A stretch of DNA of 39,640 nt from the NCBI GenBank assembly GCA_004282875.1, contig SHLT01000012.1, forward strand, positions 1-39,640, written 5' to 3'. Both the position numbers and the translations under genes were made by a program. Source of the stretch: Chromatiales bacterium. Lineage in GTDB: Bacteria; Pseudomonadota; Gammaproteobacteria; Steroidobacterales; Woeseiaceae. The notes under the pieces were generated by a model, which was not told the origin of the DNA, did no database searches, and saw only the letters and a program-made list of their open reading frames with translations. Numbering within the stretch: the first letter of the stretch is position 1; each line of letters begins with the position of its first letter. Positions 32,777 through 36,243 of this stretch are shown here, one piece after another.

Positions 32777-32798
32777 AAGCGAAAACCGCTTGTTTTTT
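32777..32798 (+). terminator. Possible terminator after the OPT gene
   Basis: A short stem AAGCG/CGCTT (32777-32781/32787-32791) with a 5-nt loop is followed by GTTTTTT. The stem is only 5 bp, so the terminator is weak. It would insulate the T-box from upstream transcription. Confidence 0.4.
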
Positions 32799-32818
32799 AG
32801 GTACTCAGAGGCTAATTT
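32790..32818 (+). promoter_or_regulatory. Tentative promoter of the ileS T-box transcript
   Basis: TTGTTT (32790-32795) and TAATTT (32813-32818) with a 17-bp spacer would start transcription about 32825, just before stem I of the T-box. The match is weak. An imperfect hairpin, GAGGC/GCCTC (32808-32823), overlaps. Confidence 0.25.
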
Positions 32819-32827
32819 GCCTCGCAA

Positions 32828-33078
32828 GACGCTGAAGGGGAGGAGTACGCAGCCCATTCAGGCCAAAGCGACCGGAGGACAGTGAGAGCTCCGGGCCTGG
32901 AACTGCCGAATATCACCCCGGAGTCGCCAACCGAAATGTGCGCAGAGTAGGCCTGGCCGGATGGTCCACGAAACGGATGTCGGGTCTTTGACCCATGAGG
33001 CAGCACTAGCTGCGAAGCCGGGTGGTACCGCGACGAATTCGATCGCCCCGGAGTGTGTATGCACTCCGGGGCGTTTTT
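32828..33078 (+). promoter_or_regulatory. T-box riboswitch (tRNA-Ile responsive leader of ileS)
   Basis: This is a complete T-box leader that senses uncharged tRNA. Stem I: GAC/GTC base (32828-32830/32923-32925), GGGG/CCCC (32837-32840/32916-32919), and a specifier loop with AGTA (32844-32847) facing GAA-T-ATC-A, where ATC (32912-32914) is an Ile codon. Above it are GCAG/CTGC, CAGGC/GCCTG, an AG bulge (AAAGCGA, 32865-32871), CCGGAG/CTCCGG and the distal loop with AGTGAGA. Stem II carries another AGTA/GAA pair. Stem III is GCAGC-ACTA-GCTGC (33000-33013). The T-box GGGTGGTACCGCG lies at 33020-33032. Its bulge UGGU (33023-33026) pairs with ACCA-3' of tRNA-Ile. The antiterminator (CCGGG/CCCGG and GCGA/TCGC) excludes the terminator stem. 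Confidence 0.95.
33044..33078 (+). terminator. Regulated intrinsic terminator of the T-box
   Basis: A 12-bp perfect stem CGCCCCGGAGTG/CACTCCGGGGCG (33044-33055/33062-33073) with loop TGTATG and TTTTT (33074-33078). Its 5' strand contains the CCCGG that the antiterminator needs, so the two structures are mutually exclusive. Regulation is therefore at transcription. Confidence 0.95.
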
Positions 33079-33096
33079 GTATGTGAGGAATGAACA

Positions 33097-36000
33097 TTGG
33101 CGTTTAAAGAAGTAACAGGTCGCTACAACGGACCAGCTCTCGAGGAAGAGGTGCTGGAGTTTTGGCGCGAGCAGGACGTCTTCGCAAAGACTGTCGAGGC
33201 CACGAAAGACGGTCCGCAATTCAGCTTCAACGAAGGTCCGCCCACGGCCAACGGCAAGCCCGGCATTCATCACGTGTTGGCACGCTCGTTCAAGGACATC
33301 TTTCCGCGGTACAAGACGATGCGAGGCTACTACGTGCCGCGCAAGGCCGGTTGGGATACGCACGGCCTGCCCGTAGAGCACGAGGTCGAAAAACTCCTCA
33401 AAAAGGAAGGCCGTATCGAGAGCTACGACAAGGCCGAGATCGAGGAGAAAGTCGGCATCGCCGAGTTCACCCGACTGTGCCGCGAGTCGGTCATGACCTA
33501 TATCGGCGACTGGGAGAAGATGACCGAGCGCATGGGGTTCTGGGTCAACCTCGACGAGGCGTATTACACGCTCAACAACTCCTTCATCGAGACAGTCTGG
33601 TATCTGCTCAAGGAAATCTGGGACAAGGACCTCATCTACAAGGGCTACAAGGTCGTCCCTTACGATCCGCGCATCGGCGCGACGTTGTCGTCACACGAAT
33701 TGGCCCAGGGGTACAAGGAAACCGAGGACCCTTCGATCACGGTGCGCTTCAAGCTTGAGGGCGAGGACGACACCTACATCCTCGTCTGGACCACGACCCC
33801 ATGGACGCTGCCGTCCAACCTCGCGCTCGCGGTCGGCACAGATATCGACTACAGCTATTGCCGCTCGGAAGGGCAGACGCTGATCGTCGCTGAAGCGCTG
33901 CGTGAAGCCGTGTTCCGCGATATCGAGCACGAAGTCGTGAAGACCGTGAAGGGCTCGGACCTGGTCGGTACGCGCTACGAGCGCCTGTTCGATTATCTCG
34001 ACGCTGAAGGCGACAAGGTATTCACGGTAATGGCGGCGGATTTTGTCAGCACGGAAGACGGCACGGGCATCGTGCACACGGCGCCGGCCTACGGCGTTGA
34101 CGATCTCGCATTCGGCCAGGCCAACGACTTGCCCGTCGTGCACGGCGTCGGTCTCGACGGCAATTTCGTCGATGCGGTCGAGCCGGTCAAAGGCCTGTTC
34201 TTCAAGGACGCGGACAAGATCCTGATTCGCATGCTCAAGGACCGCGGGCTCATGTTCCGGTCCGAACGTTACCGCCACAACTACCCGTTCGGCTGGCGTA
34301 CGGGCGACCCGATCCTCTATTACGCGAAGAATGCCTGGTATATCCGCACGTCGAAATTTGCCGAGCGCATGGCGGAGTTGAACCAGACGATCAACTGGGT
34401 GCCCGAGCACATCAAGGACGGGCGTTTTGGCAAATGGCTCGAGAACAACGTCGACTGGGCGCTGTCTCGTGAACGGTTCTGGGGAACCCCATTACCGGTC
34501 TGGACCGATGGCGAAAATTTCATGTGCGTAGGTTCAGTTGCCGAACTCGAGGAGCTGACGGGCAGGGAGTTGACCGAGCTTGACCTGCATCGGCCTGCGG
34601 TTGATGACGTCACGTTTGAGAAGGACGGCAAGACCTGGCAGCGCATCCCCGAGGTCATCGACTGCTGGTTCGACTCGGGCGCGATGTCCTACGCCCAGTG
34701 GCACTACCCGTTCGAGAACCAGGACAAGTTCGAGAAGCACTTCCCGGCAGACTTCATCTGTGAGGCGATCGACCAGACACGCGGCTGGTTTTACACGCTG
34801 CATGCGATCGCGACGCTGGTCTCCGACAGCGTGGCCTACCAGAACTGCATCTGCCTGAGCCATATCGTCGACAAGGACGGCAAGAAGATGTCCAAGTCGC
34901 TCGGCAACATCATCGACCCTTACGACGTCTTCAACTCGGTGGGCGCCGATGCCTTGCGCTGGTACTTCCTGGCCAGGCTTTCGCCCGATGTGCAAAAGCG
35001 CATCTCGGTCGACATTGTCGCCGACGTCGCGAGCTCGTTTATCAATACGTTCTGGAATACCTACGGGTTCTTTGTGCTGTACGCACGGCTGGACGAGATC
35101 GATCTTACTAAGGACGTACCGGTCGCCGATCGCCCGGAGATCGACCGCTGGGCGCTGGCGCTGCTGCACCGCACGATCACGACGGTCACGGACGCCCTGG
35201 ACCACTACGACGCCAAGGGCGCCGGCGAAGCCATCGAGTCGTTTGTTGACCAGCTTAGCAACTGGTACGTGCGCCGCAATCGGCGCCGATTCTGGAAGTC
35301 GACGGACCCGCAGGACAAGCAGGCGGCCTACCTCACGCTTTACGAATGCCTCAAGAGCGCCCACGAATTAATGGCGCCATTTGTGCCGTTCCTGGCCGAG
35401 AACGTGTACCAGAACCTCGTGCGGTCGGTGGATTCGGAGGCGCTGCCATCGGTGCACATGGGCAACTGGCCTGAAGCCGATGCCACGTGGCGGAACGAAG
35501 CGCTCCTGCACGATATCGACGTCGTGCAAAAGGTCGTCGGGCTCGGCCGTGCGGCGCGCAGCCATTCGGGCGTCCGAACGCGCCAGCCGATATCGCGTCT
35601 GCTGGTACGTGCGCCAAACGATGCGGCCGCCCGGGCGCTCGACAGTCACAAGGATCAGCTACTCGAGGAGCTAAACGTCAAGGCCGTGGAATTCATCGCG
35701 CGCGACGCGGGTCTTGTCAGCTACAACATCAAGCCGAACCTGCCGAAGCTGGGCAAGCAGTACGGCAGGCTTGTGCCGCAGATAAAGCAGGCGCTGCTCG
35801 ATGCCGACGGGGCTGCGATCGCTAGCGCAATCGCCAGCGGAGATACGTTCGAAATTGAGGTGGCGGGGCAAACGATCCCGCTCGACGGTGACGACGTCCT
35901 GGTCGAAACGCACTCCGCCGAAGGCTATTCCTGCGAGGCGGATTCAGGTTATCTCGCGGCGCTGGATACGATGCTGAGCGACGAGCTGCTGGCCGAAGGT

Positions 36001-36243
36001 CTGGCTCGTGAGGTCGTACGCTCGGTGCAGGATGCCCGCAAACAGGCCGGCCTTGAGGTATCAGATCGCATCACGCTGGGCGTATCGGGGTCGCCTGCCG
36101 TCGACGCGGCACTTGAAACGCATCGCCAGTACCTGATGAACGAAACACTGGCGATCGACTGGGTCGTTGGCCAGGAAGACGCGAAATACACGGCTGATCG
36201 AGACATGGGTGAGGAGCACTGGAAGATCGAGATCAGTCGCTAG
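33097..36243 (+). CDS. ileS: Isoleucyl-tRNA synthetase, class-2 (eukaryote-like) type
   Basis: A 1048-residue synthetase that charges tRNA-Ile. The HIGH motif appears as PGIHH (55-59) in NEGPPTANGKPGIHHVLAR, and KMSKS at 597-601. An editing (CP1) domain is present with VWTTTPWTLPSNLALAVG. Length, HIGH-region sequence and the lack of a C-terminal zinc-binding cysteine motif fit the IleRS2 type found in some bacteria and eukaryotes, often mupirocin-tolerant, rather than the usual proteobacterial IleRS1 (about 940). The start is TTG 33097 after GAGGAA (33085-33090). An overlapping 5-codon frame (ATG 33090) and an ATG-TGA at 33081 precede it. No lspA or ribF neighbour is seen. Confidence 0.95.
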   Translation: MAFKEVTGRYNGPALEEEVLEFWREQDVFAKTVEATKDGPQFSFNEGPPTANGKPGIHHVLARSFKDIFPRYKTMRGYYVPRKAGWDTHGLPVEHEVEKLLKKEGRIESYDKAEIEEKVGIAEFTRLCRESVMTYIGDWEKMTERMGFWVNLDEAYYTLNNSFIETVWYLLKEIWDKDLIYKGYKVVPYDPRIGATLSSHELAQGYKETEDPSITVRFKLEGEDDTYILVWTTTPWTLPSNLALAVGTDIDYSYCRSEGQTLIVAEALREAVFRDIEHEVVKTVKGSDLVGTRYERLFDYLDAEGDKVFTVMAADFVSTEDGTGIVHTAPAYGVDDLAFGQANDLPVVHGVGLDGNFVDAVEPVKGLFFKDADKILIRMLKDRGLMFRSERYRHNYPFGWRTGDPILYYAKNAWYIRTSKFAERMAELNQTINWVPEHIKDGRFGKWLENNVDWALSRERFWGTPLPVWTDGENFMCVGSVAELEELTGRELTELDLHRPAVDDVTFEKDGKTWQRIPEVIDCWFDSGAMSYAQWHYPFENQDKFEKHFPADFICEAIDQTRGWFYTLHAIATLVSDSVAYQNCICLSHIVDKDGKKMSKSLGNIIDPYDVFNSVGADALRWYFLARLSPDVQKRISVDIVADVASSFINTFWNTYGFFVLYARLDEIDLTKDVPVADRPEIDRWALALLHRTITTVTDALDHYDAKGAGEAIESFVDQLSNWYVRRNRRRFWKSTDPQDKQAAYLTLYECLKSAHELMAPFVPFLAENVYQNLVRSVDSEALPSVHMGNWPEADATWRNEALLHDIDVVQKVVGLGRAARSHSGVRTRQPISRLLVRAPNDAAARALDSHKDQLLEELNVKAVEFIARDAGLVSYNIKPNLPKLGKQYGRLVPQIKQALLDADGAAIASAIASGDTFEIEVAGQTIPLDGDDVLVETHSAEGYSCEADSGYLAALDTMLSDELLAEGLAREVVRSVQDARKQAGLEVSDRITLGVSGSPAVDAALETHRQYLMNETLAIDWVVGQEDAKYTADRDMGEEHWKIEISR

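Follow-up and report, generated by a model that had tools for sequence, protein, structure and literature searches.

The stretch of DNA analysed here (the window) comprises 39,640 nucleotides of a Chromatiales bacterium of the gammaproteobacterial family Woeseiaceae (assembly GCA_004282875.1, contig SHLT01000012.1), and just ahead of its isoleucyl-tRNA synthetase gene, which starts at TTG 33097, lies a leader with the elements of a class I T-box riboswitch (Table 1). An earlier note on this DNA had described a complete T-box in front of the synthetase gene and had proposed a search with the Rfam covariance model RF00230 as a check. This search (cmscan on the window) gives a significant, full-length match on the forward strand at 32823-33053 (model positions 1-219 of 219, 79.7 bits, E 8.9e-18), and all class I elements are found where the note placed them. 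Within the span that it gave, 32828-33078, the elements stand, but the 5′ boundary is corrected to about 32823. In the scan of the whole genome (3.39 Mb), the leader is the sole RF00230 match (E 1.6e-17).

A default Rfam scan of the window, run at the gathering threshold, reported no family, because the leader's score falls below the RF00230 gathering score of 93 bits; it was found instead by a scan with an E-value threshold. Most copies in relatives also score below 93 bits, a value exceeded in 16 of the 107 Woeseiaceae family members and in one Arenicellales copy.

Table 1. Features of the ileS2 leader and gene in the window, with the evidence for each
Feature	Position	Strand	Evidence
Likely sigma-70-type promoter: −35 TTGTTT (32790-32795), 17-nt spacer, −10 TAATTT (32813-32818)	32790..32818	+	Recurrence in family
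T-box riboswitch (RF00230), whole element	32823..33053	+	cmscan, 79.7 bits
Stem I: GAC/GUC base, K-turn, GGGG/CCCC, specifier loop (AGUA/GAA), AG bulge, distal helix and loop	32828..32925	+	Covarying pairs in helices 1-5; alignment
Specifier AUC (Ile; read by tRNA-Ile GAU)	32912..32914	+	Invariant alignment columns A90 T91 C92
Stem II with GAA/AGUA S-turn	32926..32957	+	Helix 6: 92.1% of cells paired, compensatory changes
Stem IIA/B pseudoknot	32958..32978	+	Helices 7 and 8; compensatory changes in 4/4 pseudoknot pairs
Extra small hairpin GGGUC-UUU-GACCC between IIA/B and stem III, variable among relatives	32982..32994	+	Sequence; alignment
Stem III	33000..33013	+	Helix 9: 89.5% paired, 5/5 pairs covary
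Antiterminator with T-box bulge UGGUACC (33023-33029)	33018..33051	+	Helices 10-11: 99-100% paired; −12.6 kcal/mol as an isolated structure
T-box core GGGUGGUACCGCG, inside antiterminator	33020..33032	+	Sequence read against model
Intrinsic terminator: 13 bp hairpin (33044-33073) and UUUUU	33044..33078	+	Hairpin −27.4 kcal/mol as an isolated structure
Likely ribosome-binding site GAGGA, outside terminator	33085..33089	+	Sequence
ileS2, clade-2 isoleucyl-tRNA synthetase, 1048 aa, TTG start	33097..36243	+	TIGR00392, 935 bits; Pfam tRNA-synt_1, Anticodon_1, DUF5915
Altered HIGH motif GIHH, residues 56-59	33262..33273	+	Motif list of 90 IleRS

Structure of the leader and predicted control of ileS2

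The structure of the leader is supported by comparison across the gammaproteobacterial copies. Compensatory changes occur in 35 of 49 tested base pairs among 40 aligned leaders, and 92.8% of cells are paired, against 32-48% with partners shifted by 1-3 columns; because the tested structure was taken from the window sequence, the percentage of paired cells is biased in its favour, whereas the count of compensatory changes is not. The functional nucleotides are invariant across the same 40 leaders, including the UGGU of the T-box bulge, which is complementary to the ACCA end of a tRNA. Position 73 of tRNA-Ile, the partner of N in UGGN, is A. We judge from these comparisons that the structure is not due to chance. 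All 61 distinct leaders that were read have an AUC specifier, the codon that matches the downstream ileS. Covariation was used as structural evidence in place of the RNAfold minimum-energy fold, which for the whole leader is weakly better than shuffles (z −1.65) and holds the terminator, not the T-box antiterminator.

The segment CGCCCCGG serves both as the 3′ strand of the antiterminator and as the 5′ arm of the terminator hairpin, which makes the two structures mutually exclusive. A terminator hairpin with a T-rich tail (five or more T within eight bases) is present in 57 of 61 homologous leaders; in the four where the scored T-rich tail is missing, one case (L011) is a truncation artefact. 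In about six species (L084, L088, L101/L011, L105, L110, L167), REP-like long palindromes of the GGTGACTGCCACC type lie in the terminator hairpin, which they lengthen and do not break.

Upstream, the putative promoter falls below a strict consensus scan, and its motif (TTGTnTTT / GCTA(A/G)TTT) is found again at the corresponding position ahead of nearly all family leaders. A small terminator-like hairpin at 32777-32791 of the window lies 3′ of an OPT transporter gene, and its T-run overlaps the −35 element.

Given this anatomy, we infer that the leader responds to tRNA and controls transcription. RNA polymerase would start near 32824 and produce the leader transcript, in which stem I would capture tRNA-Ile(GAU) through pairing of specifier and anticodon. 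With an uncharged tRNA, the ACCA end would pair with the UGGU bulge and stabilise the antiterminator (33018-33051), leading to readthrough into ileS2, and with a charged tRNA the stronger hairpin (33044-33073) would form and transcription would be terminated. Sequestration of the ribosome-binding site was considered as a mechanism and rejected because the terminator does not include the GAGGA site. The cognate tRNA-Ile(GAU) was not among the tRNAs examined in two genomes (G540 and G000), and two pattern searches for it gave tRNA-Thr-like matches only, or nothing. Since tRNA-Ala(UGC) was also unseen there, an rRNA operon seems to be missing from the sequence examined, where it is possibly unassembled.

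Distribution within and beyond Woeseiaceae

The same leader, which the earlier note had suggested looking for in related genomes, is present once per genome in 89 of 107 genomes of Woeseiaceae, a family of marine type, in 43 of the 45 of good quality and in all 12 genera, and it precedes ileS in the inspected loci. One carrier (G540) is a complete genome on a single 4.06 Mb contig (100% completeness). The named relatives of the host genome belong to Woeseiaceae and to other gammaproteobacterial groups, and the order groEL, two conserved ORFs, ileS is a neighbourhood common to the family, G540 included, which indicates vertical inheritance and agrees with the gammaproteobacterial context that had been read from the flanking genes.

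Outside the family, carriers are few. The sample of the order contained one T-box genome among 289 (G577), the class sample of 369 genomes yielded no T-box outside the host genus, and the phylum sample of 398 gave one weak match of 26 bits (G1000), which was not counted; these large samples were searched with stricter filters, under which weak copies may be missed. No plasmid record with a similar leader was found. In an Arenicellales MAG a T-box of 115.8 bits stands before ileS, with a glutathione-transferase-like ORF between them (assigned by eye), and two further MAGs, L005 (99.4 bits) and L007 (61.5 bits), also have a T-box before ileS. The copy in L004 (85.6 bits) is identical in coordinates and score to that of G475, a host-family genome, and L008 and L009 have the ileS2 gene without a T-box. 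Two of the gammaproteobacterial loci (L007, 9565-9645; L008, 5732-5814) also have an SAH riboswitch, roughly 1.4 kb downstream of ileS.

The leader had been proposed to be a transferred or very rare regulatory RNA. Transfer agrees with the comparisons below, in which ileS2 apparently moved with its riboswitch; rarity holds outside Woeseiaceae only, as within the family the T-box is a family-wide trait.

The synthetase and the origin of the pair

The product of ileS2 carries DUF5915 at its C-terminus, and its close relatives have the same TTG start codon. Among the 90 IleRS listed, every row of the gammaproteobacterial clade has GIHH in place of HIGH. Swapped GXHH motifs in IleRS2 have been associated with up to 1000-fold higher mupirocin resistance (PMC10485003), and hyper-resistance of the Woeseiaceae enzyme may be predicted from the GIHH motif. 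No IleRS1-like match is listed in 36 genomes of the same genus, where only ileS2 and ValS-like proteins appear, whereas an IleRS1 with about 31% identity is seen in most of the order's other families. Because IleRS1 is absent from the matches in these 36 genomes, the native ileS1 appears to have been replaced by ileS2 in the host genus. By these sequence comparisons the ileS2 product is a xenologue, a point that the earlier note had missed. In another family of the same order, a clade-2-like IleRS with 38-43% identity occurs without a T-box (L182 in genome G056, and G043), and the L182 enzyme has its own long branch in the tree. The gammaproteobacterial Oceanococcus sp. MAG (L048) has a GXHH IleRS2 without a T-box that groups with Rhodothermota enzymes, apparently a separate transfer.

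In the IleRS tree, the gammaproteobacterial copies form one branch (support 100/100) that groups with Chloroflexota (97/95), and these Chloroflexota relatives mostly have a T-box before ileS and often several T-boxes per genome. A placement nested inside Chloroflexota (p-AU 0.002) was tried and dropped, as it depended on the row of a cyanobacterial MAG; with this row removed, monophyly of Chloroflexota excluding the gammaproteobacterial branch is not rejected (p-AU 0.17), and for this reason we claim only that the branch groups with Chloroflexota. Among the other carriers, an 8.5 kb contig of a Leptolyngbyaceae MAG (L046) has ileS2 with a T-box (core GGGTGGCACCGCG) and is possible contamination, and two T-boxes were found in a Poribacteria MAG and nine in an Armatimonadota MAG (G450 and G452, the genomes of L029 and L031).

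A single ancient transfer from a Chloroflexota-like donor most likely brought in the T-box and ileS2 together. Both the donor and the joint transfer are deduced from comparison. One joint acquisition is the simplest reading, probably followed by vertical inheritance with occasional loss of the T-box. We hold with high confidence that ileS2, the sole IleRS gene found in the genome, is under the control of a class I T-box, and that the two arrived by joint transfer, replaced IleRS1 and were inherited vertically with few losses, with carriers also in a few other gammaproteobacterial lineages. It is improbable that the T-box instead came in on its own, perhaps from Bacillota, and joined an ileS2 gene that was already resident, or that an ancestral gammaproteobacterial T-box was lost almost everywhere. 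T-boxes are portable and their tree is poorly resolved at depth, which leaves room for either history, but the ileS2 relatives around the gammaproteobacterial branch mostly have a T-box before ileS, and the gammaproteobacterial T-boxes form one branch (97/91), as do the enzymes, apart from the Chloroflexota T-boxes of non-ileS genes; moreover, a T-box is missing from almost every genome sampled from the rest of the order, class and phylum.

A vestigial leader, whose structure persists in a gammaproteobacterial host where the response to tRNA has been lost, would fit the few relatives that have lost the T-box and kept the promoter (L176 and L177) and the one in which an internal deletion fuses stem I to the antiterminator, again with the promoter retained (L178). 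These losses indicate that the T-box is not indispensable, but the strong covariation, the invariant functional nucleotides and the conservation of the terminator across 12 genera make a non-functional leader very unlikely. An assembly chimera or contaminating Bacillota or Chloroflexota DNA, for which the window genome being a 210-contig MAG and the Chloroflexota affinity of the IleRS outside the gammaproteobacterial branch might speak, has a negligible probability and was ruled out by the T-box in about 90 related genomes, the complete single-contig one among them, and by the conserved gammaproteobacterial neighbours.

Significance and comparison with known systems

Under joint acquisition, the T-box and the GXHH IleRS2 might have acted as a self-regulating cassette that displaced the native, essential IleRS and might make the antibiotic-tolerant enzyme inducible by its own inhibition; we offer this only tentatively, and it is somewhat less probable than not. 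Mupirocin-type inhibitors or a shortage of isoleucine would increase uncharged tRNA-Ile, and the riboswitch would then raise ileS2. More broadly, a family-wide gammaproteobacterial T-box suggests that a T-box can act as a lone module where other controls prevail, and the locus seems to offer a clear example of a riboswitch that moved along with the gene it controls as an essential enzyme was being replaced. The leaders altered in L176, L177 and L178 with their promoters kept are natural comparisons. Because the Rfam cut-off hides most Woeseiaceae copies, T-boxes are probably more widespread than is known.

According to surveys, T-boxes are confined to Bacillota, Actinomycetota, Chloroflexota and Deinococcus-Thermus, plus a small number of Deltaproteobacteria of the Geobacter type (PMC2494555, PMC3766115). 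The earlier note's statement that Gammaproteobacteria do not normally have them agrees with the papers found, except that a T-box-like hisS attenuator was mentioned for isolated members of this class in 2010 (PMC2965389). In the openly accessible literature we found no paper naming both Woeseia and T-box, and while the kind of riboswitch is known, its lineage and history here are apparently unreported.

Compared with the class I ileS T-boxes of RF00230 from Bacillota, Chloroflexota and Deinococcota, the Woeseiaceae leader has the same elements in the same order, the AUC specifier, the GGGUGGUACCGCG core, the competition between antiterminator and terminator, and ileS as its target; it differs in its gammaproteobacterial host, in that most copies fall below the cut-off, and in that each carrier genome has just one T-box, which precedes ileS in the inspected loci. 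The enzyme shares with the described GXHH IleRS2 (PMC10485003) the clade-2 type and the swapped HIGH motif, and differs in that the searched genomes of the host genus showed no accompanying IleRS1, in its gammaproteobacterial host, and in that its resistance is a prediction from sequence. The leuA T-boxes of Geobacter and Pelobacter (PMC2494555) come from a host group then classed as Proteobacteria as well, but differ in class, gene and amino acid. Likewise, the hisS attenuator is a T-box-like leader reported in Gammaproteobacteria (PMC2965389); it concerns a resemblance at hisS in isolated species, whereas the Woeseiaceae T-box precedes ileS, is family-wide and is supported by covariance.
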